Below are positions 15,901 through 37,983 of a stretch of 40,998 nucleotides of DNA, piece after piece. Each line of letters begins with the position of its first letter. The first letter of the stretch is position 1. This DNA comes from Bacteroidales bacterium. GTDB taxonomy: Bacteria > Bacteroidota > Bacteroidia > Bacteroidales > M50B96. The stretch spans positions 1 to 40,998 of the forward strand of contig JAIPAR010000004.1 in the NCBI GenBank assembly GCA_021739985.1. Reading direction: 5' to 3'. The position numbers and the translations under genes were made by a program. The notes under the pieces are model-generated. The model ran no database searches, was not told where the DNA came from, and was given only the letters and a program-made list of their open reading frames with translations.

Positions 15901-18900
15901 TAATCCAATCATCAACCGGGATAACTAATGATGTAATTGTGCAATATGCAGGAACTGCATCAACAGACAACTGGGTATTGGCTTTCAATGGTTGTGACTA
16001 TGTGACAGTTAAGACTATGACTTTTCTATCGACAACTTCGTCCACTTATGGACGAGTCGTTATGTTTGACCTTGGAGCCAATTACAATACACTCGATAGT
16101 TGTAGAGTTGTCAGTATTGTGGGAACATCATCGAATGCATCCGGAATCTATAGTACAACTACCGGAGTGGACAATTTCAACACCATCTCGAATTGCAGCA
16201 TTGAAAATGGATACTATGGTATTTACTTCTATGGATCAAGTTCTGCTATGGAGGATGGGAATAAATTTATCAATAACTCGATTACCGGGTTCTACTATTA
16301 TGGTATTTATTCAGGATATAGCTTGAATATTCAGACTATTGGAAACTTGATTGCCAATGGTTCCAATTCATCTACGAATTATGCCTTAAGATATTATTAT
16401 AATGATGGTCAAAGTATAATTACCGGAAATAACATTATCGGAACCAATACAAGTACATTCTATGGACTGTACTATTACTATTGCGACCCGGACACCTCGG
16501 CTCCTTCCTTAATTGCCAATAACTTTATTTCCTATCAGGGAGGTACAACGGCAACGGCTTATGGATTGTATGTATATAATAGCATGGCTACCCAAATTTA
16601 TAATAACTCTGTAAATATTTTAACAGGGAGCGCTACGGCTTCTGCTGCAGCCTATTATTTCTATACTACCGGCACAACCTATGCAAATACGGCTATCTAT
16701 TGGCTCGACAGTAAAAACAACAACTTTGTGAATACGGGCAGTGGTTATTCCTATCTCATTAACGAAGGTGTTTACCAGTTAGGTTCAATGACAAGTGACC
16801 ATAATAATTTGTATGTATCCGGAACTAATTTGACGAAGGTTGGAACGGTAAATCAAACCACCCTGACCGCTTGGCAGAATTATTATCCGGGAGATGTTAA
16901 AAATGTAAACCCAGGATATGTTAGTTCATCGGACTTGCACACCAATTCAGGTGATTTAGATGGATTTGGTGTTCCTCTTGCAGAGGTAGCTACCGATATT
17001 GATGGAGAAGCCAGAGATGCTTCTACTCCTGATATCGGAGCGGATGAATATACGCCTGCTTCTTTTGACTGTGGGGTTGTAAATATTTTAAATCTTTCCG
17101 GAGTTTGCCCGGGTACCATACCTGTTGAGGTAGTGATCCAAAATTTTGGACTTGACACCCTTACAACAGCCTGGATACATTGGACCATCAATGGTGTAGC
17201 TCAAACTACTTACATCTGGACAGGCTCTATCGCTCCTCTCGAAACGGATACTGCTTTGGTGGGTTCTTATACTTTTACTTCCGGGACTTTTTATACCGTG
17301 GAAGCACATACCAGTCACCCAAACAATGGTTCGGATGGAAATGCTCAAAATGATGCTTATACGACTCCCGGATTTGAAACCGCAATGTTTGGAACCTACA
17401 CCGTTGGTGCAACCGGCGATTTCTTAACCATTACCGAAGCTGCTCAGGCATTGATGGTGAATGGAATTTGTGATGATGTGATTATCAGCATTACTCCGGG
17501 TACTTATAATGAATCGGTTATGTTGAACGATGTGGTTGGAGTTGGTCCAAATGCAACCATTACCTTCCAGTCTTCTACCGGAGTTAATACCGACGTTATT
17601 GTAACCTTTACAGGAACATCAGCCATTAATTATGTTTTCCAGATTACATCTGCTGATTATGTGACGATTCAAAATATGACCCTGACAAATACCGCCTCTG
17701 CAACTTATGGGAAGGTATTTTCTTTAACCGGCGGATCTGATCATATCACCATCAATAATAACCTTATTAATTCAATTACCGGAAGTAGTTCCTCTGCTGC
17801 GGGTATTTATGCTACCGGGCTTAATAATTATCTTACTATATCAAACAATACCATTAAATACGGGTATTATGGAATTTATGCATATGGCTCCAGTTCGGCA
17901 TTGAATGAAGGGACTCAAATTCTGAATAATAATGTGACTGATTTTTATTATTATGGTATTTATGCTTATTATCATAATAACGCACGTCTGGAAGGGAACT
18001 TCGTTGAAACGGCAGCAGCCTCAACCAGTACAACCGTTTATGTATTAACAGCAGGCTATTGCGATGGAGAAAGCGTAATTGCCAATAATGATGTACGGGA
18101 TGCACGTAGTAGTTCTACGGTTTATGGTTTAAGGGTTTATTACTGTGATGCTCCTTCCATGGCTCAAGCTACTTTAGTGTATAATAATAGAGTATCTATT
18201 ACCGGGACCAAGACATCGGTATATGCATTCTACATTTATTATTCAGCCTATGCCAAATGCTATTATAACTCCGTAAATGTTACTACGGGTACTTCCACCT
18301 GTCGGGCAGCTTATTTGTATAGCTCAACTACTGGTGTTTACAATACAGTTATGAAAAATAACAGTATCGTGGCCAATGTAAATGCTGCTGCTTTTTCTAT
18401 TTATTATTATGGCCCGGCTACCGGATTAACCAGTGACCATAACAACTACTATAATAACGGAACGAACTTTGGTTATAATAATGCCAATGTTATCACCCAG
18501 GCCAGTTGGCAAGCTGTTTATCCTGGCGATGTAATAAGTACCGGAAGTGCTTATGTTTCAAATACGAACCTTCATTCACTTTCTGCTATGTTAGATGGAC
18601 AAGGTACTCCTATTCTGGAAGTTACGGTTGATATGGATGGAGATGTCCGAAATACATTAACTCCGGATATTGGTGCTGATGAGTTCGAATTGCTCGCTTA
18701 CGATTTGGAGTTAGCCAATGTTTATACGCTAGGTGAAATTCCTCAGGAAGCCGGTGACAATCATGTTATGGTTGCACGAGTTATCAATGCAGGTACTCAG
18801 ACTCAGTATAACAAAACGATTACGTTACAGATTACGGGTGCTAATACACAGACCGTTACAGCGAACATCGATACGATTGTTGGTGGTGCCATCAAGTACA

Positions 18901-21900
18901 TTAATTTCCAACCTTATACATTAACGAATCTTGGATGGAATACGCTTAATGTTTCTATTGAAAGTGATCAAAACAACAACAATAATTCGCTGACACTTCC
19001 TCAACTTGCTACAACAAATGTGATGACTTTTGCCGATACAACTGTTTCTACAGGAAATGGAGGAAATAATGATGCAGATGGTCATATTTACTGGAATAAG
19101 TATTATATCAATGGATTAAAATCAGTTACTCAGGTTACTGCTTACATTACGGGAGATGCCAACAACGTTGGTAATACAGTTTATGGTGCCGTTATGGATA
19201 TGAACAATAACTTACTGGGTATTACAAACCCGCATATGATTGCTGCCAATGAGCTGGATACCTATATCACGATGACTTTTGCAGACCCAAGTGGTTTGAC
19301 CTTTGCCAATGAATATGCGTATGTGGGATTTGTTCAAACACCTACTGTAGCTTCCGCTTACTTCCCAATCGGATATCAGGATGAGATTCCTATGAGACCG
19401 GAAACTTACTACTATTCATCGAACATGAACGGAAGTGGATTTACCTTATATACTAATAATCGTCGTTGGATGATTAAAGCAGTACTGGAAGATCCGGCTC
19501 CTTATAATGCTGCTGTTATTGCAGTAGTTGCTCCGGTAAGTGAGACCTGCGGTTTAGGCAATGAAAATATTATTGCTACTACCCTAAACTACGGTTCAGA
19601 TACCATCACTACTTATACCATGTCATATCAGGTTAACGGTGGGTCGATTGTAACCGAGAATGTCATTGCTACGCTTATTCCGGGAGCTACATACAATTAT
19701 ACCTTCAACCAGGCTTATAATTTCGTGGCACCAACTGCAGATAGCACATTTACAATTAAAGTATGGGCCACTTTGGCTGGTGATACTTTACACGCTAATG
19801 ATACTATCCTGGTGGCTGTTAATTCCTTATATGTTCCTATTGCACCTGTTGCCAATATAGGGACCACCATTTTTGGAACAAACGGAACCTTCTCTGCTTC
19901 GGCAGCTGATACCATTGCCTGGTTTATGGATCCACAAGGATTAGTTTCATTGGGATTTGGCGATAGTATTACTTACGGACCACTCTTTGATACGACCACC
20001 ATCTATGCATCAGCTATTATTCCCTCAGGAACTGTAGCTTTAACAGAATTCATGATTGGAGACCCGGATTTTATTGAGATTCAAAATATCTCTAGTGGTC
20101 AAATTGATGCCACGGGCTGGGTAGTAGCTGTAAGTAATAGTTATACGGATATTAACTCCGTAAATGCAAACCTTTGGAACTTAGGCGTAATGCCTGCTGG
20201 TCAGGTGCTGTATAAATCAGATTCATCAACCGACAACTATTGGGGAAGTAACTTATTCTGGAATCCGGGTGCCGTCCCAAGCTATAGAGGCTGGGCAATC
20301 ATTCTTGATAATCTTGGAAATATCGTTGACTTTGCCAACTGGGGTTGGACGGATGCTGAATTAGCTACTTTCTCTGCTGCTATTAATGGTTTCACAGTTA
20401 ACTTCGCTTCTGCCTGGAGTGGCGGTTACATTAATGCTTCCACCAACTATCTGACTCGTACCAATTACGACACCGATACTCCTGGAGACTGGCTTGTATC
20501 AGCCGCTGGAAATATTGGTTTTGCTAATCCAACTTTAGCAATTACATCTTCAACCGGAAGCGGTTGCGCCAGTGATTTAGTCCCCGTTACGGTTAACGTA
20601 ACCAACATTCCAATCAATGACGCCGGTGTTTCAGTCATTATCAGTCCACAGTCCGGATTTGAACTTGGGATGGAAACGATTTGTGTTGAAATCCAAAACC
20701 TTGGTTCAGTTGCAGCTGTTAACTTCCCAATAACTGTTTCAGTTGACAATGGATTCCAACTAACGGACTATGTAACGACTCCACTTGCTGCTGGTTCAAC
20801 AGCGCAGTTTTGTTTCAATTTCCCAGTGGATTTGACTCCATTTGGAACATACGAATTGTGTGTATATACTCAATTTGCAGGTGACGGATATGCTGCTAAT
20901 GACACCTTGTGTACCACCATTATAAATGACTCAAGCATGTGTGCTTCTTATGCTACTTCGACTTCCTATGAAGAAATCATTGAAGTCGGATTTGCCGGAT
21001 ATGTTAATAATACAGGACCAGCTTACGGAGCTACTTATTCTAATTTTACCGGTTTAGGTCCGGTTGCTGATTTGATTCCGGGTATGACCTATCCGCTTCA
21101 TATCACCAGTTATTTTGCACCGGGATACACAACCATATATACCTGCTATGCAAAAGTTTATGCTGATTGGAACCATGATGGTGTATTCTCAGAAACGACT
21201 GAATTAATTTATGGTGCCCTCACAAATTCGAATAGTACCATTAACGGCACCTTCACTGTTCCGGGGAATGCGTATATTGGAGTTGTAAATCTACGCGTAG
21301 TGATGGAAGAAACCTCAGCTGCAGCTAACGTATCTGCCTGCGGAACCTATTCATGGGGTGAAACTGAAGATTATAAGGTAAATATCCAGGCTCCTTCTCC
21401 TTGGGATGTGGCCACCATGGCAATTACTCAGCCTTCTGGCACCTTAATACAAGGTCAGATTTCTCCGGTGGTTGCTACCGTTTATAATATTGGTACAGAA
21501 ACCATCACATCATTGGTTATTGAATATACCATAAATGGTGGCGCTCCGGTAAGTTACAACTGGTCTGGCTCCTTAGCTTCCTTCTCAAATACGAGTGTTA
21601 CACTTCCAAGTTTTGTTATACCTGGTGGTAACTATACCATTTGTGTAACTTCCATCCTTGCAAATGATGCAAACGCAAGTAACAACAGCTATTGCGGAAC
21701 TTATTTTGCTCTTCCACAATTTGATTTGGAAATGACAGCAATTTTAGCCCCGGAAAGTGGTTGCGACTATAACTATCAGGATGTTACAGTAACATTTACG
21801 AACCTTGGTGATACGATTACTGATCCTATTCAATTGGGCTATCAGCTTAATACAATGTCAAATCCACATATTGAAAACTTTACCGGAGTTATTTTACCAG

Positions 21901-24900
21901 GCGCCGTTATTACTTATACATTCAATTCTCCTGTCAACCTTACAGTCTTTATTGATACTGATTTTGAACTAACTGCTTTTACAAGCTATATCGAAGACCC
22001 AATCCATTTGAATGATAGTATCATGATTGAAGTAGGTTCCTATGTAAGTCCTCCTGCTCCATCTGCTAATAGTTTGTATGTTTGGAGTGGACAGTCTGCT
22101 ACATTCAATGTCAATAATCCGGATACTAACCTGGTATACAGTTGGTTTATGGCCGATACGACCTTCCTTGATTTTGGGAATAGTATATCAACTCCACCTT
22201 TATACGACACAGCTACCTATTATTTAGGAGCCTCAAGCGGAGGAGGAAGTGGTTCATTAACAACTGCTTATAATAGTAACAATGGATTGGCAAGTATCAT
22301 GTTCTCTGTACAGGCACTCAGTGGAAACATTACGATTGAATCATTTGATATCAATATTGATGGAACCACTCCGGTTGAAGTATTTTATCATGCCGGAGGT
22401 TTCTTAGGTGCAGAATCGAATCAAGCTCTATGGACCTTGTTAGGATCTCTTCCTTCGGTGACCAGCAATGGAGCAAATGTTCCAACACCTCTTGCCATTG
22501 GTGGTTTAATGATTCCTGCCGGTGAAACCTATGGTATTTTGATTACTACGACCAATAGCGGGATGAATTATACAACTTTAACCGTTCCCGAAACCTACAC
22601 AGATGGCAATATTACCCTGGTAACCGGAGCAGGAGTTCCTAATCCATTATCCACAACAATTAATTATCCTCGTGGATTTAACGGTACGGTTTATTATTCA
22701 AGTGGTAATGGTTGTGTAAGTGAATTGACCGAGGTTAATGCCTATGTTCAATATGCTGATTATGACGCAGCTGTTGTTGGATTGATTAGCCCTGAAAGTG
22801 GTTCATTCCTTTCCAGCGATTCAGTTATTGTTGCAATCTATAATAATGGTCTGAATCCTATTTCGAACTTCCCAATGAATTATACGGTAAATGGTACGAA
22901 TATGGTTTCTCAAACCTATGCCGGCACCATCATGCCTGGTGATACCGCCTATTTCACTTTCAGTACATTGGTGAATTTATCCGTTTTTGGTTCTTATGAT
23001 ATTTGTGTTACAGCGAATGTGGCTAATGATGGTTTAACTTCTAATGACACCTATTGTGGCAATGTTATTAACTACAACGGTAGCGGATTGAATTGTGCGG
23101 AAGCATTCCCTTATGGAACCATTAATGATCCATCTCAAAACTCAGCAACAACCTTTGCTTATGATTCTGAATGGTGGTCATTTGAAGTTCCATCAGGCTT
23201 ATCCTATGATAATGTGGTCATTTCGCTTTGCGGTTCGGGATTCGATACGTATTTATATTACTATACCGCATGTAACACGGCACCTGCTTCTTCCAATGAT
23301 AATTCGTGTGGAACAGCTTCCCAAATCTCACTAGGAACTACGGCTCTTACAGCAGGCATTTACTATGTGAAAGTAAGTGGCGCCTCCACCAACTTTGGTA
23401 CATATACCTTATCCATTACTGGTAATCTTATACCGAAGTTCATTGTTAACCTGACTGCATATGCCGCTGATTGTAATGGTACTGCTACGGGTGCAATTAC
23501 TTCCAATATTCTGCAAGGACCTACCGGTTCAAGTGCTACTTTGCCTGTTACTTACCATTGGTCAAATAATGCCAGTACGGAAGATATCACTAACATTGCT
23601 GCCGGTACTTACTTCGTCAGTGTTACAGATGCAACCGGTTGGACTGAAGTAGTGCAAGCTACTGTAACAGAACCTTCTGAGATAGTTATTACAACTGACT
23701 CTGTTTCACATAATACAGTCATTGGCGGCCATATTGGATCAATTGGCATCACTGTTACCGGTGGCGCAGGTTCATATACCTACTTATGGGGAAATGGAGC
23801 TACTACACAGGATTTGACTGATTTGTACGCAGGGATTTATGCCTTAACTGTAACAGACGCAAATGGATGTCAGGAGTCTATTTCGATTCCGGTGAACTCA
23901 CCTTCACCCTGGACTGCCACTCCAACTTCTATCAGCCATATTATTGTTATCCCACAAAACACCTTGATTACACTTGACTTATTGAATTTAAGTCCGGGTA
24001 GCTTTGTTGGAGTATTCTATGATTCATCTGGAACCTTAGCTTGCGGCGGTTGGGCATATTGGTCAGGAATGGCCACTACTTTAACTGCATATGGTGCATC
24101 AGCCGGACAAGAGAATGGGTTCAATCCGAATGAAACCTTCTATTGGAAAGTATATGATGCTGCATTGGGAGTTCAATATCCAGGAACAGCCACTTATAAT
24201 GTACCACAATATCCAAACAATAGTAGTTTTGCTCCTGGCGGCCTGAGTGGCTTAACCAAAATTGAGGCCTTCTCAATAATAACACAAACCATTCCTCTTC
24301 CTGAAGGTTGGAGTATCTGGTCCACTTATATTAGTCCTACCAACCCCAATATTCAAGTTGTAATGGCCGAAATTGCACCATGTCCTCCGGGCGTATCCAA
24401 AGTCGTCATTGTGAAGAATGGAGCAGGAGCTATTTATTGGCCAGCCTATTGTTTGAATATGATTGGAAATGTAATTGTTGGACAGGGATATCAGGTGAAG
24501 GTTGCCAATAGCGGTCAAGGAACAAGCTTTGGAGTAACCGGCTTAAAATTAAGTCCGAATACTCAATTTACAATTCCTGCCGGCTGGTCCTTTATCGCTT
24601 ATTTGAAAGATCAACCTGCCTCTGTTGTAACCATGCTTGCAGCCATTGCCCCTCAAGGGAACCCGGCCGGTTGTACTCAAATTGTAAAAAATGGAGCAGG
24701 TCAAATCTTTTGGCCACTCTATAGCCTCGTTACATTCCCGAATGGATTAATGTATCCCGGACAAGGTTATCAGCTTAAAAACAATTGTTCCGCACTTACT
24801 TTCTCGTATCCGGGAACAAAATCGGAAGATTTAAACTTCACTGAAGCTGCTACTCCTTCCCATTTTGGCTCAACCGTGAATACCGGCAACAATATGACAC

Positions 24901-25475
24901 TCGGAATTCCGGAAGATGCATGGATTTCAAAACCAAACTATGGGGATGAAATTGGAGTATTCAATGCTGAAAATCAACTGATTGGTGCTTCTGTTTATGA
25001 AGAAGGCTTTACAGCTATTACCATCTGGGGGAAAGAAATCATTAACCCGGAAGAAAAAGGTTCTATTGGAAGCCCTTTCTCTATCAAACTTTATAACACT
25101 ACCACTAATCAAGAATCGACCCTTACCGTTGACTCCTGGTTAGAAGGTGAGGCCGTTTATGCAGAAAACGGAATTGCTGTCGTTGAAAAATTTGCACCGT
25201 CTCTTATGATGGCTGATGAATGGTTCGTTGGCCAAAATAACCCTAACCCTTTCAACTCAAGCACAACCATTCCGGTTTATGCCCCCGTTGAAAACTACGT
25301 TGAAATAACATTATACAATACACTTGGAGAAATGATACAGGTTATCTATCAAGGAAATCTAAAAGCCGGAAATCATGAAATAAAAGTAAATGCTGAGCGT
25401 TTACCAGCTGGAAACTATTATTACAAATTTACGTCTGATAGTTTTGCATGTACTAAGTACATGACTATACAATAA
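12999..25475 (+). CDS. Giant multidomain T9SS-type secreted/surface protein (4158 aa)
   Basis: Signal peptide and choice-of-anchor-J-like N-terminus. Three tandem CARDB + parallel beta-helix units each ending in D[IM]DGxxR...TPDIGADE. Further CARDB-like repeats, a lamin-tail-like segment, a GEVED-like segment (VYADWNHDGVFSE...WGETEDYKVNI), a PPC-like segment, SprB-like repeats (YLWGNGATTQDLTDLYAGIYALTVTDANGC), and the duplicated GWS/YWP/GYQ module. T9SS type A tail: NNPNPFNSSTTIPVYAPVENYVEITLYNTLGEMI...LPAGNYYYKFTSDSFACTKYMTIQ. Confidence 0.92.
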   Translation: MKHHFYSFRMKVVMLSLMAIFLAMTSSAQITTYPYFENFDGASTWTSGGTGSTWALGVPAMTTINSAYSAPNVWATNLTGNYANSELSWIQSPEFSFVGLTAPVVEFKMWYVTQNVYTDGASLQYSLDQGTTWAHVGAEYGSILPDVNATNWYNENTIAGLEYKNGWAGNSGGWITGKYILNSPTVTNLANQASVTFRFLFGSNASTQNEGIAIDNFSVYQQPNTDIGIISLYSIESVCIGLNDVYAIVQNFGLNTITTFNANWEVNSVSQTGYLYSGSLATNATDTIYLGQYNFLQGTTYNVTASTANPNGTIDQNTFNDSYTITGLTTSLSGAYTVGTGADYATIDAAITALQNIGVCAPVIMNILPGTYTGNYSIGAVPGTNAVNTVTFTSSTGIATDVVLTYAAAGSTDYWTWRFNNTSYIILDKVTVVGTGATYARAVEFINAASFCTVSNCIINIPVGTSSYFVGVYANTTLENNITIANNIINNGYYGVYVRGASSSSYESNTVITGNTFNNPYYYGINLAYNNFPVISNNIININSASSTTYGIYNYYTIDAIIDGNTVTNSSASGTGYGIYSAYSDGAQKILNNRITMTNNGTVYALYDYYCDASPGNEALVANNFVYQGVGTGTAYGLYMYYSTYQNVYFNSIHITGGSSTAGKGMYFYSASTTASSIRVANNNVVNSGGGYAADILAASVTANYVSYSDYNNIYATGPVLVRWGATDMATLAAFQTATGSNANSVSVDPVFVSPTDLHTSNATLNAAAEPYASVTTDIDGELRDATTPDIGADEFTPAQNDAGVSAFVGINTVCPGTSDVIVSVGNYGLAILNTVQIHWTVNGVAQPVINATNLNLASGSMTDVTLGTFNFVAGTVYNLSAYTTLPNGSSDANHINDSTFVTGMETSLSGTYTVGATGNYLTIQDAVNALSSHGICGPVVINVEPGTYTGQATIGVINGSSATNTVLIQSSTGITNDVIVQYAGTASTDNWVLAFNGCDYVTVKTMTFLSTTSSTYGRVVMFDLGANYNTLDSCRVVSIVGTSSNASGIYSTTTGVDNFNTISNCSIENGYYGIYFYGSSSAMEDGNKFINNSITGFYYYGIYSGYSLNIQTIGNLIANGSNSSTNYALRYYYNDGQSIITGNNIIGTNTSTFYGLYYYYCDPDTSAPSLIANNFISYQGGTTATAYGLYVYNSMATQIYNNSVNILTGSATASAAAYYFYTTGTTYANTAIYWLDSKNNNFVNTGSGYSYLINEGVYQLGSMTSDHNNLYVSGTNLTKVGTVNQTTLTAWQNYYPGDVKNVNPGYVSSSDLHTNSGDLDGFGVPLAEVATDIDGEARDASTPDIGADEYTPASFDCGVVNILNLSGVCPGTIPVEVVIQNFGLDTLTTAWIHWTINGVAQTTYIWTGSIAPLETDTALVGSYTFTSGTFYTVEAHTSHPNNGSDGNAQNDAYTTPGFETAMFGTYTVGATGDFLTITEAAQALMVNGICDDVIISITPGTYNESVMLNDVVGVGPNATITFQSSTGVNTDVIVTFTGTSAINYVFQITSADYVTIQNMTLTNTASATYGKVFSLTGGSDHITINNNLINSITGSSSSAAGIYATGLNNYLTISNNTIKYGYYGIYAYGSSSALNEGTQILNNNVTDFYYYGIYAYYHNNARLEGNFVETAAASTSTTVYVLTAGYCDGESVIANNDVRDARSSSTVYGLRVYYCDAPSMAQATLVYNNRVSITGTKTSVYAFYIYYSAYAKCYYNSVNVTTGTSTCRAAYLYSSTTGVYNTVMKNNSIVANVNAAAFSIYYYGPATGLTSDHNNYYNNGTNFGYNNANVITQASWQAVYPGDVISTGSAYVSNTNLHSLSAMLDGQGTPILEVTVDMDGDVRNTLTPDIGADEFELLAYDLELANVYTLGEIPQEAGDNHVMVARVINAGTQTQYNKTITLQITGANTQTVTANIDTIVGGAIKYINFQPYTLTNLGWNTLNVSIESDQNNNNNSLTLPQLATTNVMTFADTTVSTGNGGNNDADGHIYWNKYYINGLKSVTQVTAYITGDANNVGNTVYGAVMDMNNNLLGITNPHMIAANELDTYITMTFADPSGLTFANEYAYVGFVQTPTVASAYFPIGYQDEIPMRPETYYYSSNMNGSGFTLYTNNRRWMIKAVLEDPAPYNAAVIAVVAPVSETCGLGNENIIATTLNYGSDTITTYTMSYQVNGGSIVTENVIATLIPGATYNYTFNQAYNFVAPTADSTFTIKVWATLAGDTLHANDTILVAVNSLYVPIAPVANIGTTIFGTNGTFSASAADTIAWFMDPQGLVSLGFGDSITYGPLFDTTTIYASAIIPSGTVALTEFMIGDPDFIEIQNISSGQIDATGWVVAVSNSYTDINSVNANLWNLGVMPAGQVLYKSDSSTDNYWGSNLFWNPGAVPSYRGWAIILDNLGNIVDFANWGWTDAELATFSAAINGFTVNFASAWSGGYINASTNYLTRTNYDTDTPGDWLVSAAGNIGFANPTLAITSSTGSGCASDLVPVTVNVTNIPINDAGVSVIISPQSGFELGMETICVEIQNLGSVAAVNFPITVSVDNGFQLTDYVTTPLAAGSTAQFCFNFPVDLTPFGTYELCVYTQFAGDGYAANDTLCTTIINDSSMCASYATSTSYEEIIEVGFAGYVNNTGPAYGATYSNFTGLGPVADLIPGMTYPLHITSYFAPGYTTIYTCYAKVYADWNHDGVFSETTELIYGALTNSNSTINGTFTVPGNAYIGVVNLRVVMEETSAAANVSACGTYSWGETEDYKVNIQAPSPWDVATMAITQPSGTLIQGQISPVVATVYNIGTETITSLVIEYTINGGAPVSYNWSGSLASFSNTSVTLPSFVIPGGNYTICVTSILANDANASNNSYCGTYFALPQFDLEMTAILAPESGCDYNYQDVTVTFTNLGDTITDPIQLGYQLNTMSNPHIENFTGVILPGAVITYTFNSPVNLTVFIDTDFELTAFTSYIEDPIHLNDSIMIEVGSYVSPPAPSANSLYVWSGQSATFNVNNPDTNLVYSWFMADTTFLDFGNSISTPPLYDTATYYLGASSGGGSGSLTTAYNSNNGLASIMFSVQALSGNITIESFDINIDGTTPVEVFYHAGGFLGAESNQALWTLLGSLPSVTSNGANVPTPLAIGGLMIPAGETYGILITTTNSGMNYTTLTVPETYTDGNITLVTGAGVPNPLSTTINYPRGFNGTVYYSSGNGCVSELTEVNAYVQYADYDAAVVGLISPESGSFLSSDSVIVAIYNNGLNPISNFPMNYTVNGTNMVSQTYAGTIMPGDTAYFTFSTLVNLSVFGSYDICVTANVANDGLTSNDTYCGNVINYNGSGLNCAEAFPYGTINDPSQNSATTFAYDSEWWSFEVPSGLSYDNVVISLCGSGFDTYLYYYTACNTAPASSNDNSCGTASQISLGTTALTAGIYYVKVSGASTNFGTYTLSITGNLIPKFIVNLTAYAADCNGTATGAITSNILQGPTGSSATLPVTYHWSNNASTEDITNIAAGTYFVSVTDATGWTEVVQATVTEPSEIVITTDSVSHNTVIGGHIGSIGITVTGGAGSYTYLWGNGATTQDLTDLYAGIYALTVTDANGCQESISIPVNSPSPWTATPTSISHIIVIPQNTLITLDLLNLSPGSFVGVFYDSSGTLACGGWAYWSGMATTLTAYGASAGQENGFNPNETFYWKVYDAALGVQYPGTATYNVPQYPNNSSFAPGGLSGLTKIEAFSIITQTIPLPEGWSIWSTYISPTNPNIQVVMAEIAPCPPGVSKVVIVKNGAGAIYWPAYCLNMIGNVIVGQGYQVKVANSGQGTSFGVTGLKLSPNTQFTIPAGWSFIAYLKDQPASVVTMLAAIAPQGNPAGCTQIVKNGAGQIFWPLYSLVTFPNGLMYPGQGYQLKNNCSALTFSYPGTKSEDLNFTEAATPSHFGSTVNTGNNMTLGIPEDAWISKPNYGDEIGVFNAENQLIGASVYEEGFTAITIWGKEIINPEEKGSIGSPFSIKLYNTTTNQESTLTVDSWLEGEAVYAENGIAVVEKFAPSLMMADEWFVGQNNPNPFNSSTTIPVYAPVENYVEITLYNTLGEMIQVIYQGNLKAGNHEIKVNAERLPAGNYYYKFTSDSFACTKYMTIQ
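13663..18690 (+). repeat. Three tandem protein-level repeat units (CARDB-like + right-handed beta-helix), ~1.65-1.73 kb each
   Basis: Approximate unit boundaries 13663-15395, 15396-17058 and 17059-18690. Each starts with DxGVxxxxxxxxVCPG/IG...VxNxGL, has a TVGATGDYLTIxxAxxAL...GICxPVxINxxPGTY segment, many YYGIYxYY strands, and ends with DIDGExRDAxTPDIGADE. Confidence 0.85.
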
Positions 25476-25500
25476 CCTCTATCATTTTAGTTAACATTTC

Positions 25501-25534
25501 AGAAGGCTGTCGGGATGACAGCCTTCTCGTTTTT
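25501..25534 (+). terminator. Rho-independent terminator after the giant T9SS gene
   Basis: Perfect 11-bp stem AGAAGGCTGTC-GGGAT-GACAGCCTTCT followed by CGTTTTT. Confidence 0.88.
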
Positions 25535-25570
25535 AACAGCTATTATTAAACATACTAATCCTGTGAAATT

Positions 25571-25585
25571 TTAACAAATTGTTAA
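25571..25585. promoter_or_regulatory. Inverted repeat TTAACAA-A-TTGTTAA upstream of thioredoxin-T9SS gene
   Basis: Perfect 7-bp arms around a single A, 66 nt upstream of the ATG at 25651. Confidence 0.5.
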
Positions 25586-25650
25586 GTCTGCGCGGAAAAT
25601 TATTTTTATCTTAGTGCCCTATTTAAATTTGATAACTAACACCTATAATT

Positions 25651-27282
25651 ATGAAGAAAAATCTACTCTTACTTCTTGCTTTATTAGTAAGTTTTTCAGT
25701 ATTCAGCCAATACAGAGCTATGAATGTTGAACCAGCAAAAAACCCGGCTCCTAAAAGTGTTGCCGCTCTTGCTCCTAACTTTACTACAACAGACATCAAT
25801 GGTAACACGTACACTTTATACGATTACCTCAATGCCGGTAAAACAGTAATCATCGATATGATGGCTACTTGGTGTGAACCTTGTTGGAACTTCCATACAA
25901 ATGGAGCCTTAGAAGATGTTTATAACACCTACGGACCAAACGGCACCAATGAAATTATGGTGTTTATGATGGAAGCTGACGACACAACTCCTCTTTCTGA
26001 ACTCACCGCTTCAACTTTAGGTGACTGGACTGCCGGAACTCCTCAACCAATTTGTAATGATGATAATATTGCTGCATTATTCAATCTTCAATATTATCCT
26101 ACTATTTTGATGATTTGCCCAACAGGCGATTATTATGAAGTTGGACAAGGTATCACTGCTTATTTTACCGCTGCTGAATATTATGCATTCGCACAACAAT
26201 GTCCTACCACTGCTGATGCTCCTATTTGCGACTTCTCTTTCAGTCCAAATGCTACCATGGGTTCAACCGTAACTTTTACCGACGAATCATGGGCTCTTCC
26301 TACTTCATGGAGCTGGACTTTTGAACAAGGAACTCCTACTTCATCAACGAATCAAAACCCAACTTGTGTTTGGAATGTAGCAGGTGTTTATGATATCACT
26401 TTGATTGCTTCCAATGCAAACGGTGCTGGTACTGCTGTTACCAAACAAATTACCATTATTGACCCGGCTGCTACCAATAATTTGAATGTTACTTTCGAAG
26501 AATGTATGACCAACTGGACAGGTGATTTTTCTCCTTATCAGTGGACAACTGTTGACTTAGACTTAGGTAATGTATGGGGTGATTTCTCTGATGTAGGAGT
26601 TAGCGGTCCAATGGCTTTCAATGTTTATGATCATGCTGAAGCAATGGCTACGGTTGGTAATGGTTTAGCTCCTCATGGTGGAAACAAAGCTGGTATGGTT
26701 ATGAATACTATAACCGCAAGTGCTCCAAACAATGACTGGTTCATTTCTCCACTTATCAATTTAGGAACCAACTCTTCAATTAGTATGTGGGCTGCTTCTT
26801 TATCAACAGATTGGGGCGCAGAAGAATTTTATATCGCCGTTTCTACTACAGATAACGCTCCTGGCAGTTTTATCAACGTTTCTCCTTTAAACACTCCTGG
26901 TGAAGCTTATACAAACTATACTGCTGATCTGAATGCTTATAATAACATGCCAGTTTATATTGGTATTCATTGTGTAAGTAATGACCATTTTGTATTATTT
27001 GTTGATGACATTGTAATCAATACAACTACAATTGGTATTGACGAAAATGCTGCCGTTGCTGTTCGCGTTTATCCTAACCCTTCAACAGGTACCGTTAATG
27101 TTGAAAACGCTCAAGGTAGTTCAATTCAAATTTACAACATGATTGGTGAAGTTGTTGCTTCACAAGCTAAAGCTAATCAGTTCGAATCATTCGACCTTTC
27201 AACTCTTAGCAATGGTACTTATTTCGTAAAAGTTATTTCTGAAGCACTGGTTTCTACTCAAAAAGTAGTTATCAATAAATAA
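25651..27282 (+). CDS. Secreted thioredoxin-like protein with PKD, choice-of-anchor J-like and T9SS type A domains
   Basis: Signal peptide; DYLNAGKTVIIDMMATWCEPCWNF (CxxC, CEPC); PKD-like FTDESWALPTSWSWTFEQGTPTSSTNQNPTCVWNVAGVYDITLIASN; C-terminal VYPNPSTGTVNVENAQGSSIQIYNMIGEVV...LSNGTYFVKVISEALVSTQKVVINK. Confidence 0.92.
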   Translation: MKKNLLLLLALLVSFSVFSQYRAMNVEPAKNPAPKSVAALAPNFTTTDINGNTYTLYDYLNAGKTVIIDMMATWCEPCWNFHTNGALEDVYNTYGPNGTNEIMVFMMEADDTTPLSELTASTLGDWTAGTPQPICNDDNIAALFNLQYYPTILMICPTGDYYEVGQGITAYFTAAEYYAFAQQCPTTADAPICDFSFSPNATMGSTVTFTDESWALPTSWSWTFEQGTPTSSTNQNPTCVWNVAGVYDITLIASNANGAGTAVTKQITIIDPAATNNLNVTFEECMTNWTGDFSPYQWTTVDLDLGNVWGDFSDVGVSGPMAFNVYDHAEAMATVGNGLAPHGGNKAGMVMNTITASAPNNDWFISPLINLGTNSSISMWAASLSTDWGAEEFYIAVSTTDNAPGSFINVSPLNTPGEAYTNYTADLNAYNNMPVYIGIHCVSNDHFVLFVDDIVINTTTIGIDENAAVAVRVYPNPSTGTVNVENAQGSSIQIYNMIGEVVASQAKANQFESFDLSTLSNGTYFVKVISEALVSTQKVVINK

Positions 27283-27369: not shown

Positions 27370-28365
27370 CTATTCACCAAATACTTTGAACCATTCCGCC
27401 ATGCGGGTTAGTCCTTCTTTTACATCGGTAGTAGGCTGATATCCATAATCTTGCTGTAATCTGGTTACATCCGAATAAGTCCTGTAAACATCCCCAATGC
27501 GCATCGGACGATATATGATTTTTGCGCTGATTTGAAGCACATCTTCCAGGGTTGCAATAAAATCATTCAAATTCACCGGATTGGAGTTCCCAATATTATA
27601 TACTTCATACACCGATTGCTGATTCATCGTTAAACGAATCCCCTGCACGATATCATCCACATACGTAAAATCTCGTTCCAGATTGCCGTTGTTGAACACA
27701 TCAATACTATCGCCGGCCAATATTTTCTTCATAAAAATATAAGGTGCCATATCAGGCCTTCCCCAAGGTCCATACACGGTAAAAAATCGTAATCCGGTGG
27801 TTTTAAGCTGATACAAATGGCTATAGGAATAAGCCATTAATTCATTCGCCTTTTTGGTAGCTGCATACATTGAAATAGGATTGTCAACCCGATCTTCTTC
27901 CCGAAACGGGACATCTTCCCGATTTCCATAAACCGAACTGGAACTAGCATAGATAAAGTGCTTGACTCCGGCATGCCTGGAGGCATCCAGCAAATTGATA
28001 AAGCCTACCACATTTGTATCTACATAAGTATGCGGATTTTGTAACGAATATTGAACTCCGGCCTGTGCAGCCAGATTAATAATGATATCAAATTTTTCCT
28101 GATGAAATAAGGCTTCAACTGCCTGGCGGTTGGTAATATCCATCTTTACAAATGAATAGGATGGATGTAACCGACTTGGATACAATGTATGGTCTTCCGG
28201 CTCAAGGGTATCAATCCCTAAAATCGGAAGCTTTTTGGTCTTTAAACTGCGCGCGTAGTAGTCATTAATATTATCCAGCCCAATTATCTCAAAGCCTTCT
28301 TTAATCAATAATTCGGTTAAATGATACCCAATAAAGCCCAGGCCTCCTGTAACTAATATTTTCAT
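27370..28365 (-). CDS. NAD-dependent epimerase, UDP-glucuronate 4-epimerase-like
   Basis: Rossmann motif GGLGFIGYHL, AAQAGVQYSLQNP, SSSSVYG and YAATKKANE catalytic YxxxK. Confidence 0.88.
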   Translation of the reverse strand: MKILVTGGLGFIGYHLTELLIKEGFEIIGLDNINDYYARSLKTKKLPILGIDTLEPEDHTLYPSRLHPSYSFVKMDITNRQAVEALFHQEKFDIIINLAAQAGVQYSLQNPHTYVDTNVVGFINLLDASRHAGVKHFIYASSSSVYGNREDVPFREEDRVDNPISMYAATKKANELMAYSYSHLYQLKTTGLRFFTVYGPWGRPDMAPYIFMKKILAGDSIDVFNNGNLERDFTYVDDIVQGIRLTMNQQSVYEVYNIGNSNPVNLNDFIATLEDVLQISAKIIYRPMRIGDVYRTYSDVTRLQQDYGYQPTTDVKEGLTRMAEWFKVFGE

Positions 28366-28477
28366 TTGATTTATTTTATAGGATGATTATTTTCGCACCA
28401 GATTTCTTTCTCCTAAGGGATTATATGGCGGATGCGTTTTCGTTCACGTGTTTTTCATGGATGACTAAGCTGTAAGT

Positions 28478-29056
28478 TTAATCCCGTTTCCGGATTTTAC
28501 TTACAAGACCATCTTCCAAGCGATAATACTCCTTGCTCTCCGGACAAATTGCTTCTCCGTTGACAAATTCAAGCCTATGTCCATACTCACTCATCCAGCC
28601 AATCTGACGAGCCGGATTGCCAACCACCAACGCATAGGGCTTAACTTCTTTGGTTATCACAGCACCTGCTCCGATAAAGGCAAACTCCCCAATATCATGT
28701 CCACAAACAATCGTTGCATTGGCTCCGATACTGGCACCGTGCCTGACAATGGTTTTCGTGTAAATTCCCCGCCGATTGACTGCTGAGCGTGGATTTATCA
28801 CATTAGTAAAAACCATCGACGGACCCAGAAAAACATCATCCTCACAAATTACCCCCGTATAAATGGAAACATTATTCTGCACCTTCACATTATTTCCCAA
28901 CACAACTTCCGGAGAGATTACCACATTTTGTCCAATGTTGCAATTTTCACCTAATTGGCAGTGACTCATGATATGTGAAAAATGCCAGATTTTAGTTCCT
29001 TTCCCGATGGTACAAGGCTCATCAATTACTGCGGTTTCATGTGCAAAATAACTCAT
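28478..29056 (-). CDS. Left-handed beta-helix acyltransferase, WbpD/WlbB-like UDP-sugar N-acetyltransferase
   Basis: Hexapeptide repeats; [31 protein letters not shown] and [56 protein letters not shown]. Confidence 0.85.
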
Positions 29057-29114
29057 AGGCTGCGAATTTTATGGTTTATGTAAATTTTCTTCTGATTTAG
29101 TTAATCCTAAATGG

Positions 29115-29615
29115 TTATAATCCTTCTACTTTATTCCGATGGACCTGAGCAATGAGACTCATCCCCAATTGATTAATACGTATCCTTAACTTATTTTTTC
29201 CAATACTCTCGATGATACCCGTCTTTCCCGCTAAAGGTCCTTCCTGAATGACCACAGGTTGATTCTTTTCGAACTGAATATCATAATTTGTGGTTTGCTC
29301 TAAAAATAATTTAATCGCCTCAATCTCATAATCAGCTATTATCGCAGGTTTTCCCAGATAATATACAAGTCTTGAGATGCCTTTAATCTCATTCATAATA
29401 TGAAAATCAATCGGTCGGATTTTTAGGAAAACATAGGATGTAAACAGTACCACTTCCACTTTTTTCTTGCGGTCTGACCACTGTCGAACTTCCGTACGAA
29501 CCGGACAATAGGTTTCAATACCTGCTTCGTTCAATAGTTTTTCAACTTTTTTTTCTTGTCGCGAAGAAGTATAGATGGCATGCCAGGTTCGGGGTATAAG
29601 CTGACTGTCTGTCAT
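29115..29615 (-). CDS. NusG-like (UpxY-type) transcription antitermination protein
   Basis: [59 protein letters not shown]-like domain and KOW-like [22 protein letters not shown]. Start at MTDSQ is preferred over the track start (29633). Confidence 0.85.
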
Positions 29616-29696
29616 AAGGAGCAATTTCCACAAAACTATAAAATTTCCATGGAAGACAAAGCCATCAGGGATTAATCACTTTTTCTTAAAAAATCC

Positions 29697-33024: not shown

Positions 33025-34377
33025 ATGGACAAAATGAAGAGATTTTTTTTACCGGTGGTTATCCTGGCAATTTCGGGGGCGCTCGCATTTGTTAGTTGTA
33101 CCGGTGATGATCCCGATGAACCAAGTGTAGCCTCCTGTGTAGGATGTCACACCAATTATGAGCACCTGCAGGCAGTATATACTCCCGATACAACAGCTCC
33201 GGCTGGAGGTTGCGGGGGGGAAGCTCCTCATATTGAACCTTACGACCGGGTTTATATGGGTGGTGAAGGATTTGAGGCTTATAAAGCATCTTCACACTAT
33301 GAAGTAGGTTGTGTAGGTTGCCATAATGGGGTTGATAATACTGATGATAAGGTTGAAGCTCATTCAGGCGAGTTTATTCGGCATCCATCGATGTATTATG
33401 AAGAAAAATGTGGAAGTTGTCATGCCGACATTGCGAATGACTTTACAACTAGTTTGCATCATGGAACGGGGCAGAAACGTAAAGTAACGATTCGCAACGG
33501 TTTGGCCGGCGCACATGAGTTTGATCAATTGCCTGCGCATCAAATCGAAGGCTATAATGCCAACTGTGCAACTTGCCACGGAACATGTGGAAATTGCCAC
33601 GTTGTTCGTCCACCTGCAGGTGGTGGTGGTCTTTCAAGTGGTCACAACTTCAATAAAACCCCTGATATGCTGAATGTTTGTGTAACTTGTCACACATCCC
33701 GCGGTGGGCACGCATTCCTCGGAGTTGCTGCCGGAACACAACCCGATGTTCACTTATCTTCGAATAGTTTTAAATGTTTAAGTTGTCACTCGGGTCATGA
33801 AATGCATGGAAATGGCGAGCCGGTTGACCAACGTTATGCTTATACTGAGTTACCAAGCTGTCAGGATTGTCATACAGGCATTCAGACGGCAAACATTTAC
33901 CACTCTTTCCACTATAATACCTTTAATTGTCAAGTTTGCCATTCTCAGGATTATAATAATTGTGGAAGCTGCCATATTCATGGAGCAGGAGCCAGAATTC
34001 CATCCTACCTGGGCTTTAAAATCGCTAAAAACCCAATTCCGGATATCAAAACTGAATTTAATTTAACATTGGTAAGACGGTCTTTAGCAGCACCTGATAG
34101 CTGGCAAGAGTTTGGAGTTGCTGAATCATCTAATTTTGATGCATTCCCAACCTATAATTTTACCACTCCTCATAATATTTTACGCTGGACTACCCGTACC
34201 CAAACAGCACCTGGTGCAACCTGCTATTCGAATTGTCATATCCGCAACGAAGCCGGCACACTGGTAAATCAGGAACTTTATTTGTTCCAAACTGATTTGC
34301 TCGAATGGGAATTGGATGCAACAGCTCCGATAACAGTTGACGGGCAACTGCCAACTTCCTGGTTCGATCCACAATAA
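33025..34377 (+). CDS. Multiheme c-type cytochrome, predicted lipoprotein
   Basis: Ten CxxCH motifs (CVGCH x2, CGSCH x2, CATCH, CGNCH, CVTCH, CLSCH, CQDCH, CQVCH) plus one CYSNCH. N-terminal lipobox-like region ALAFVSC|TGDDPDEP. Confidence 0.9.
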   Translation: MDKMKRFFLPVVILAISGALAFVSCTGDDPDEPSVASCVGCHTNYEHLQAVYTPDTTAPAGGCGGEAPHIEPYDRVYMGGEGFEAYKASSHYEVGCVGCHNGVDNTDDKVEAHSGEFIRHPSMYYEEKCGSCHADIANDFTTSLHHGTGQKRKVTIRNGLAGAHEFDQLPAHQIEGYNANCATCHGTCGNCHVVRPPAGGGGLSSGHNFNKTPDMLNVCVTCHTSRGGHAFLGVAAGTQPDVHLSSNSFKCLSCHSGHEMHGNGEPVDQRYAYTELPSCQDCHTGIQTANIYHSFHYNTFNCQVCHSQDYNNCGSCHIHGAGARIPSYLGFKIAKNPIPDIKTEFNLTLVRRSLAAPDSWQEFGVAESSNFDAFPTYNFTTPHNILRWTTRTQTAPGATCYSNCHIRNEAGTLVNQELYLFQTDLLEWELDATAPITVDGQLPTSWFDPQ

Positions 34378-34418
34378 TGATGTTTTATTAATACAAATAA
34401 ATCTTAATTCTAGAAACT

Positions 34419-35411
34419 ATGGCAAAATTTAAATTCTGGATGCTAAGCATCCTTGTAGTAGGTCTCGCTTTCAATTTTACAAGCTGTTCAGATGATGATC
34501 CAATCAACGAAGCACAGGTCCTTGCTGAATACATGGAATCAGCTGATTCTCCTTTGATGAAAGATTATGTCAATACCGACATGCCTTCTATCATTACAGC
34601 AACGGATGTTAATTCATTTAATTTACTTGGACAAGCCTATATTATTGACATTCGTTCAGCTGCTGATTATGCAAACGGACATATTGCCAATGCTGTGAAT
34701 GTTGCTTTCGCTGACCTGTTGACTCATGTGGCTGCTATTAACATGGCCAATTATCAGAAAGTAGTTATTGTATGCTACAGTGGTCAAACTGCTGCTTACG
34801 GTGCTAGTATTCTTCGTTTAATGGGTTATGATAAAGTTTTCTCCATGAAATTTGGAATGTGTTCCTGGAATGAAGCTACTGCCACCGGATGGAGCACCAG
34901 CATCAGCAATCTATACGCTACTCAGTTCACGGCTGACTCAACTTCGAAAAATGCTGAAGGTGCACTTCCTACCTTGGAAACAGGTAAAACTACCGGCCAG
35001 GAAATTTTAGAAGCTCGTGTTGCTACTTTATTAACCGAAGGTTTTGACCCGGCTAAAATCACGAATGCAACTGTTTTCGGTAATCTGACAAATTATTACA
35101 TCATTAACTATTGGCCATTGGCTTCATATCTGGATCCAGGTCATATTCCAGGAGCCATTCAGTACGAACCTAAATTAACAATTAAGCTCGATGCTGCTTT
35201 GAAAACACTTCCTACCGATAAAACTATCGTTGTGTATTGCTACACCGGTCAAACCAGTGCTTTCTTAACCGCTTATCTCCGTCTCCTGGGTTATGATGCT
35301 AAATCTTTACTCTATGGTGCTAACGGAATGATTTATGACGTAATGTTAGCAGCTGGAATGACTACCTTTAAACCCGCTACCGATATTATGGGTTATGATT
35401 TAGTTCAATAA
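34419..35411 (+). CDS. Tandem rhodanese-domain lipoprotein
   Basis: Lipoprotein signal VGLAFNFTSC|SDDDP. Two rhodanese active-site loops, VVIVCYSGQTAAYGASILRLMGYDKV and TIVVYCYTGQTSAFLTAYLRLLGYDAK. Confidence 0.9.
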   Translation: MAKFKFWMLSILVVGLAFNFTSCSDDDPINEAQVLAEYMESADSPLMKDYVNTDMPSIITATDVNSFNLLGQAYIIDIRSAADYANGHIANAVNVAFADLLTHVAAINMANYQKVVIVCYSGQTAAYGASILRLMGYDKVFSMKFGMCSWNEATATGWSTSISNLYATQFTADSTSKNAEGALPTLETGKTTGQEILEARVATLLTEGFDPAKITNATVFGNLTNYYIINYWPLASYLDPGHIPGAIQYEPKLTIKLDAALKTLPTDKTIVVYCYTGQTSAFLTAYLRLLGYDAKSLLYGANGMIYDVMLAAGMTTFKPATDIMGYDLVQ

Positions 35412-36336: not shown

Positions 36337-36900
36337 TTAGGATACTGGGCCGGGTTTGCGGATTTTTTCATTCCAAATAACCCAAAGAGAAAATATCACC
36401 ACATAAAAGAAAGGCCGAAGGATCCAATCATGCATAAAATCCCATTGTTCGGGCCAATATTGCAGGATAACTCCCAGGATAACAATGCGAAAAATATTTA
36501 CCCCATGCATAAGAATCATGCTCATCGGAATATACCAGAGTTTATGTTTCCAGGGGCCGGGAAACAGCAAAAATAGTACGATAATCTGATAAAATTGTTT
36601 AACCCCGGAACAGGAATTATTGACCTCAATAAATCCAACTTCCGGAAAGAGGAAAGTAGTACCCTGATGCGTAACCGGATACATCTTATCTAAAAAAAAG
36701 GCCGAATTGTTGAACAATAGCTCACGCATGAAATCCCGTATGCCAGCCATCCATCCCCAATCATTGAAAACAGTACTAAATGCCCAATAAAACTTATGCG
36801 CTAATACGGTAATCAGGATAAATAAAATTACATCTGCTACGGGGCGATAGCGTTGATACAAAGTTTTTACATGCTGATAGGAAAGGTTTAAACTTTTCAT
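36337..36900 (-). CDS. Exosortase/archaeosortase family transmembrane protease-like protein
   Basis: Multi-TM 187 aa protein with ordered Cys-Arg-His candidates: EVNNSCSGVKQF, HGVNIFRIVILG and MHDWILRPFFY. This is the spacing/order expected of the exosortase/archaeosortase superfamily. Confidence 0.82.
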   Translation of the reverse strand: MKSLNLSYQHVKTLYQRYRPVADVILFILITVLAHKFYWAFSTVFNDWGWMAGIRDFMRELLFNNSAFFLDKMYPVTHQGTTFLFPEVGFIEVNNSCSGVKQFYQIIVLFLLFPGPWKHKLWYIPMSMILMHGVNIFRIVILGVILQYWPEQWDFMHDWILRPFFYVVIFSLWVIWNEKIRKPGPVS

Positions 36901-36978
36901 TTTTCAACGATTTAATTAATAATAAAATCAGGCAGTAAGATGCTCTCGAATCATCCTATCAGTCCGATATTTTTTTTG

Positions 36979-37983
36979 TCAATAAAGATACTTGGCCAAT
37001 ATTGGTCCGGCGAAATTGGTCACCCAATCAGGTAGGCTTTTCCATATTCCACTCAAATCAGGAATTCGTCGGGGATTCGCATTGGTTGAACCAGTGTACG
37101 ACCAAACTAAGGGCACATCATAGGTATTCCATTGCTTTTTATAGCGATGTACGCCACTATCCTTCGTACTCCTTCCAAAAGAGTATATCCCGAAATGTTG
37201 AATGATGGCTTCTTGAATAAGTAACCAGTTTAATCGATACGAAATATATTGCGAACGAAGTTCCCAATCGCTTGCAAACCAATTGTTTTCCACAAAATTA
37301 CCATAGCCAAGATTAATCGCTCCGGCAACGGGTTGTTGGTTGCGGTATAGAACAATTCCATAGAGCTGTCCTCCCTGATACCTTTGCACAAGCATTTGAA
37401 AAAATCGTTCGGGTAAGTGTGGGCTTCCCAGGCGTTTTAGATTCTTACGATACACCCTAAAAAAATCTCCAATCAGCTTCTTCTGCGTCAGGCTATCATT
37501 GGACTGGCGGATATAGGCTGCTTGAAATTCATCCGTACCGGCTTTGTTTATCTTTCGTTTCAAATCGGCCGGAAAAACATTCCATTGACTGGATATTTCA
37601 GGTTCTAACGCCAGCCAGGAGGACACTTTATATGTTAAAATTCTGTTGGAAAATTCTTTGAAATCCCGCCATTCTACAGCACTGAACTTCTGCACGAACA
37701 TCTTAAAAATAGCTTCTCCTGAAATAGGGCTGGTTAACGAAATACGGATATTTCCATAAGAGAAATGCGGTGTACTAACCATCCGATTTCGGATTCTATT
37801 CCCGCCGATAAGAGCAATGGGATTCCCATCATCTTCCAAACTAAAAAAGGATGCCGGGAAATCAAAAATATTTTCGATAAGGATATTTAAAGCAGGATTA
37901 CACCCATGAGTCAGCACTGTTCCGGTGTTGATCTGGGGGGTCAAAGATTCATATTCGGAAGCGGAAATTTCACGCAATATCAT
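36979..37983 (-). CDS. FemAB/GNAT-fold acyltransferase-like protein
   Basis: C-terminal GNAT-like segment GQLYGIVLYRNQQPVAGAINLGYGNFVENNWFASDWE...NWLLIQEAIIQHFGIYSFGRSTKDSGVHRYKKQWN, resembling FemAB proteins of the XrtA/PEP-CTERM-associated type (FGRS...G..RFKKxWG). Confidence 0.72.
   Translation of the reverse strand: MILREISASEYESLTPQINTGTVLTHGCNPALNILIENIFDFPASFFSLEDDGNPIALIGGNRIRNRMVSTPHFSYGNIRISLTSPISGEAIFKMFVQKFSAVEWRDFKEFSNRILTYKVSSWLALEPEISSQWNVFPADLKRKINKAGTDEFQAAYIRQSNDSLTQKKLIGDFFRVYRKNLKRLGSPHLPERFFQMLVQRYQGGQLYGIVLYRNQQPVAGAINLGYGNFVENNWFASDWELRSQYISYRLNWLLIQEAIIQHFGIYSFGRSTKDSGVHRYKKQWNTYDVPLVWSYTGSTNANPRRIPDLSGIWKSLPDWVTNFAGPILAKYLY

Follow-up and report, generated by a model that had tools for sequence, protein, structure and literature searches.

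The window analyzed here, a stretch of 40,998 nucleotides from an uncultured Bacteroidales bacterium (1.9-Mb draft genome, 60% complete), likely carries the enzyme module of an exosortase system whose substrates are encoded elsewhere in the genome: PID-CTERM-like miniproteins, each located directly behind a gene for T9SS cargo and probably co-transcribed with it. An initial annotation had tentatively read the two genes of this module, for an exosortase and a FemAB-like protein, as a stripped-down XrtA/PEP-CTERM-like system with its substrates elsewhere, serving as a second surface-anchoring route beside T9SS. The exosortase/FemAB pair is real and the main guess about its substrates was right; the system does not amount to a reduced form of XrtA, and its connection with T9SS appears to be tighter than “beside” would suggest.

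Both genes were found as open reading frames on the minus strand, with the coordinates and spacing claimed for them, and the ordered Cys, Arg, and His motifs of the exosortase are all there (Table 1). The FemAB gene lies upstream and the exosortase gene downstream, and the two are probably organized as one operon.

Table 1. Features of the exosortase/FemAB gene pair in the window
Feature	Position	Strand	Basis
Exosortase gene, 187 aa	36337..36900	(-)	TIGR04178 and PF09721 matches; AlphaFold2 model
FemAB/FemX-like transferase gene, 334 aa, TIGR03019-type (XrtA/PEP-CTERM-associated)	36979..37983	(-)	TIGR03019, PF13480, AlphaFold2 model
Intergenic gap, 78 nt, same-strand genes on both sides	36901..36978	(-)	Sequence
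Cys97 codon (NNSCSG), presumed catalytic	36610..36612	(-)	Conservation
Arg138 codon (NIFRIV)	36487..36489	(-)	Conservation
His157 codon (HDWILRPF)	36430..36432	(-)	Conservation

In profile searches, the exosortase clears the cutoffs of two general models: it scores 63 bits against TIGR04178, where the cutoff is 23, and 46.9 bits against PF09721, where it is 25.7. This bears out the family assignment of the initial annotation. It attains none of the Xrt subfamily cutoffs: the best-scoring subfamily, XrtX (NF046081), gives 87 bits (cutoff, 170), the XrtF model 44 bits (cutoff, 90), and the XrtA/EpsH model TIGR02602 25.3 bits (cutoff, 105.55). Seven clade members from other genomes score 50 to 93 bits against the XrtX model, also under 170. 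Judged by these scores, the exosortase is XrtX-related and falls in a separate clade. Among 33 relatives of the order the three residues are near-invariant, as had been anticipated for its orthologs (Cys97, 32/33; Arg138, 33/33; His157, 32/33), and the position of Cys97 is invariant in A4. The AlphaFold2 model (mean pLDDT, 94) displays long helices, and the protein is a multi-helix membrane protein with conserved Cys, Arg, and His in this order, as in the exosortase/archaeosortase superfamily; a PDB fold search with the model returned zero matches at E values up to 0.001, and a solved superfamily member for comparison did not turn up. One exosortase is present in the available 60%-complete genome of the window, and 76 of 198 genomes of the order carry it. 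Our survey covered 80 named Bacteroidales exosortase loci, the relatives being nearly all metagenome genomes.

The FemAB-like protein matches TIGR03019 over nearly the whole model (102.5 bits; E, 2e-29) and also matches PF13480. With a score under the TIGR03019 equivalog cutoff of 260, it is homologous to this family and not an equivalog. Its AlphaFold2 model resembles Weissella FemX (1xe4; E, 4.5e-14; TM score, 0.6 to 0.65; for 7z5y, 0.65), FemX being a tRNA-dependent amino-acid transferase, and profile matches and fold together uphold the FemAB identity first proposed. At least 30 of the 80 named loci encode a TIGR03019-type FemAB no more than 5 kb from the exosortase, and at least 26 a TIGR03006-like polysaccharide deacetylase near it, at least 23 of these having FemAB too; the counts are lower bounds, as many contigs are short. 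Gene order around exosortase and FemAB differs between loci, and the pair is therefore not explained by simple inheritance of a single stretch. TIGR03019 matches of at least 80 bits occur in 10 genomes, all of which have the exosortase (10/10, versus 76/198 overall; P = 5e-5), and the pair is thus conserved across related genomes. In a 99%-complete congener, one further gene sits between FemAB and exosortase, and an XrtA-type deacetylase is found on another contig than the exosortase. The deacetylase also scores below its equivalog cutoff (TIGR03006), and none was detected in the 60%-complete genome of the window. Exopolysaccharide (EPS) genes (sugar transferase, WecA-like, and deacetylase) are grouped with the exosortase in many relatives. 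Two additional families recur beside the exosortase at L034, L061, and many other loci: c6 (approximately 555 aa), which gave no Pfam or NCBIfam match, and c3 (approximately 311 aa, with an N-terminal transmembrane segment), for which matches are only weak.

Exosortase neighborhoods of relatives encode proteins of 67 to 79 aa with a signal peptide, a Pro/Gly-rich stretch, a P[IV][DG]GG-like motif, a transmembrane segment, and a basic end, one of which is PID_CTERM according to NCBIfam. This NCBIfam model is too strict for the clade (E, 0.39 for a true-looking case), and we therefore built a profile (A1) from 29 tails, with every sequence of the window's genus left out. No PID/PEP-type tail was found within the window by regex and substrate profile, so that the lack of a visible substrate is true of the window; it does not extend to the genome, where A1 finds two miniproteins (G000:C10:16380, E of 2.5e-9; G000:C9:23301, E of 8.5e-9). 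Both have 79 to 80 aa, with a signal peptide, Pro-rich stretch, GGGAPLxxG motif, transmembrane segment, and basic tail; recognized by the extended profile, they give 11.3 bits and no match, respectively, against the NCBIfam PID_CTERM model (NF046080; cutoff, 26), which many relatives' miniproteins pass. The congener has six A1 matches and another genome of the family has seven, while seven exosortase-less genomes contain none below an E value of 0.06. The whole-genome scan for motif-transmembrane-Arg/Lys tails called for by the initial annotation, covering here PID-type tails, thus places substrates elsewhere in the genome as predicted, and “stripped-down” does not fit a system with two candidates in its own incomplete genome, six in the congener, and a deacetylase encoded elsewhere in the latter.

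Across the order, A1 matches are found in 58 of 198 genomes, 51 of which also have the exosortase (Fisher P = 9e-21), and in 28 of the 31 genomes with strong exosortase orthologs. Of the seven A1-positive exceptions, two carry a different exosortase-like gene and the remaining five lack one; G134 (97% complete) has five A1 matches with no exosortase detected. This co-occurrence suggests that the miniproteins are likely targets of the exosortase. A second class of PID-CTERM miniproteins (PPPPPP...IPIDGGL) is often single and adjacent to another XrtX-related exosortase (99 to 129 bits), and is mostly without a T9SS neighbor (L066-L069, L071-L076, L078, L080-L081, L083, L087, L089, L091-L092).

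Both miniprotein genes in the genome of the window lie directly behind T9SS cargo genes, at 55 nt (723-aa cargo) and 11 nt (1837-aa cargo). Of 69 distinct miniprotein genes, 52 are preceded on the same strand, at a distance of up to 300 nt, by a gene encoding at least 150 aa. In 43 of these 52, the upstream neighbor ends in a T9SS sorting domain, compared to 4 of 77 control same-strand gene pairs taken from the same genomes (P = 1e-20), and the miniproteins are probably co-transcribed with the upstream cargo gene. Of the congener's six miniproteins, two are without T9SS cargo directly upstream and one sits at a contig end. In some relatives (L036, L039, and L040) cargo, miniprotein, and exosortase are contiguous. 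The two partner cargo proteins of the window's genome are type A cargo by TIGR04183 (38.8 and 35.0 bits; cutoff, 23), with matches beginning at model positions 10 and 13. T9SS sorting domains at E values up to 0.01 number 96 in this genome and 123 in the congener, and miniprotein partners are therefore a small subset. Since the substrate genes form tandems with single T9SS cargo genes, the exosortase and T9SS routes look coupled rather than parallel, and the earlier emphasis on a second anchoring route beside T9SS is probably wrong.

The partner cargo also carries a variant sorting domain. Forty partner domains align as IYxxxxxIYV...VYNxxGQ...GxYIV...TxKVxI, and a PNP-like motif (YPNP) is absent in 38 of them versus 0 of 40 other T9SS cargo proteins of the genus, a contrast that is somewhat inflated, as the comparison set consists mostly of full-length TIGR04183 matches and favors PNP-bearing domains. 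The PNP-less partners mark a subclass of T9SS sorting domains. Exclusivity of this domain to miniprotein partners was rejected, since PNP-less domains are found in exosortase-less genomes too (G012); one apparent PNP-less exception, G000:C80, sits at a contig edge and is not informative. An LED...RFxLHF module was dropped as a signature of partner cargo, being present in just 29 of 52 (regex). In G012, members of a different, signal-less miniprotein family (KP...I.IDN.ISLVMMS.PPGDP...NPF) lie 14 and 25 nt behind two PNP-less domains. Several genomes, mostly without this exosortase, encode this family 14 to 110 nt downstream of T9SS cargo (L319, G012:C567; L336, G012:C134; L348-L367). Two tested members gave no NCBIfam model match, and the family may be an alternative partner of PNP-less cargo.

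In the mechanism that we propose, a Sec-exported miniprotein would be held in the inner membrane through its C-terminal transmembrane segment, and the exosortase would cut near the GGGAPxxxG motif via Cys97, with Arg138 and His157, and pass the N-terminal part, a short peptide, on to an acceptor, which would be an amino-modified glycolipid or exopolysaccharide. Loading of an amino acid onto this acceptor may fall to the FemX-like protein, much as has been proposed for VimA within the linker pathway of T9SS. VimA of Porphyromonas matches TIGR03019 and works in a linking-sugar pathway for T9SS cargo, and it has been speculated that TIGR03019-matching proteins make the exosortase acceptor (PMC7468200). 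The VimA/PorU/A-LPS pathway thus shares a TIGR03019-type protein with the system described here, but there PorU, a sortase, has the cargo as its direct substrate, whereas the FemAB described here has an inner-membrane exosortase as its partner. Cognate cargo could have, in the released peptide, a partner or anchor of its own at the surface, similar to T9SS type B cargo, which is encoded beside a cognate PorP/SprF protein as dedicated surface-anchoring partner (PMC9143113, PMC10202324). The likeness lies in this gene arrangement; type B systems combine a PorP-like partner with a type B domain, in contrast to an exosortase-tailed miniprotein and a type A-like domain without PNP. Cleavage, conjugation, and cargo binding of the miniproteins are steps that we infer from sequence and analogy. 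It is possible, and we put this forward tentatively, that exosortase and T9SS make up one bipartite display system, in which the PNP-less cargo subset, each member with its own exosortase-processed miniprotein, would be held or matured at the surface through a FemAB-modified acceptor. If true, two surface-display routes work together on a subset of cargo.

Exosortase and miniproteins might also form one system in which the tandem with T9SS cargo reflects shared regulation only, with peptides that decorate exopolysaccharide without touching the cargo. Adjacency as such points to co-expression and not to contact, and the clustering of EPS genes with the exosortase in many relatives is in agreement with this. 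However, co-regulation alone would predict neither one miniprotein per cargo in fixed order nor the distinct sorting domain of the partners, and we regard this explanation as rather unlikely. We see only a small chance that this is the classical XrtA/PEP-CTERM/exopolysaccharide type in a form that Bacteroidota have reduced. The accessory types known from XrtA (EpsH)/PEP-CTERM systems (FemAB, TIGR03019; deacetylase, TIGR03006) do recur beside the exosortase and travel with it, but all of them remain below their equivalog cutoffs, the co-occurring substrates are miniproteins with P[IL]xxG in place of PEP, and the exosortase is not XrtA/EpsH (25 bits to TIGR02602; cutoff, 105.6), which goes against the XrtA leaning of the initial annotation.

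Still less probable is a role of the miniproteins as membrane-anchored periplasmic chaperones or receptors of T9SS cargo that the exosortase leaves uncut. Their short length, single C-terminal transmembrane segment, basic tail, and position next to cargo would suit such a role, as would the few genomes with miniproteins and no detected exosortase; their strong co-occurrence with the exosortase (51/58), the contiguity in some relatives, and the fact that the PID_CTERM model covers the same tail type argue against it. The least probable explanation makes FemAB a chance neighbor with no relation to the exosortase, an amino-acid transferase for capsule or peptidoglycan. FemX-fold proteins are widespread in Bacteroidales and the congener has another gene inserted between the two, yet 30 of 80 loci have FemAB close to an orthologous exosortase, in gene orders that vary, and strong TIGR03019 matches co-occur with the exosortase in 10 of 10 genomes.

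We return to the miniproteins as candidate substrates of an exosortase with T9SS-linked targets, and to the known systems nearest to it. XrtX/PID-CTERM (NF046081, NF046080) provides the closest exosortase model and the same PID-type C-terminal tail, transmembrane segment, and basic end. It differs from the clade described here in exosortase score (50 to 93 bits in those tested), in substrates that read GGGAPLxxG in the window's genome and fall under the PID_CTERM cutoff, and in the pairing of multi-copy miniproteins with T9SS cargo. XrtF of Flavobacterium johnsoniae is likewise a Bacteroidota exosortase of a T9SS-bearing organism, but its model is matched here at less than half of its cutoff (44 versus 90 bits). 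Deletion of XrtF impairs biofilm formation and colonization, and this paper, the sole phenotype study of a Bacteroidota exosortase that we found, leaves the XrtF substrates unknown (PMC10936215); for the exosortase described here, the miniproteins are candidate substrates. In the open-access literature that we searched, PID-CTERM is not mentioned, nor did we find a paper tying exosortase substrates to T9SS cargo. The one-to-one tandem of exosortase-tagged miniprotein and T9SS cargo connects two sorting machines directly and in a way that lends itself to testing.

Within the window, positions 12999-27282 encode a 4158-aa protein that has a T9SS-type C terminus with PNP and is followed by a T9SS-dependent thioredoxin-like protein (25651-27282), both without a miniprotein partner. 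In addition, we observe a small polysaccharide group approximately 7 kb from the exosortase/FemAB pair, composed of a NusG-like (UpxY-type) factor, a hexapeptide transferase, and a sugar epimerase (27370-29633). Finally, a CxxCH-rich protein that reads as multiheme cytochrome-like from its sequence adjoins a rhodanese-like lipoprotein (33025-35411).
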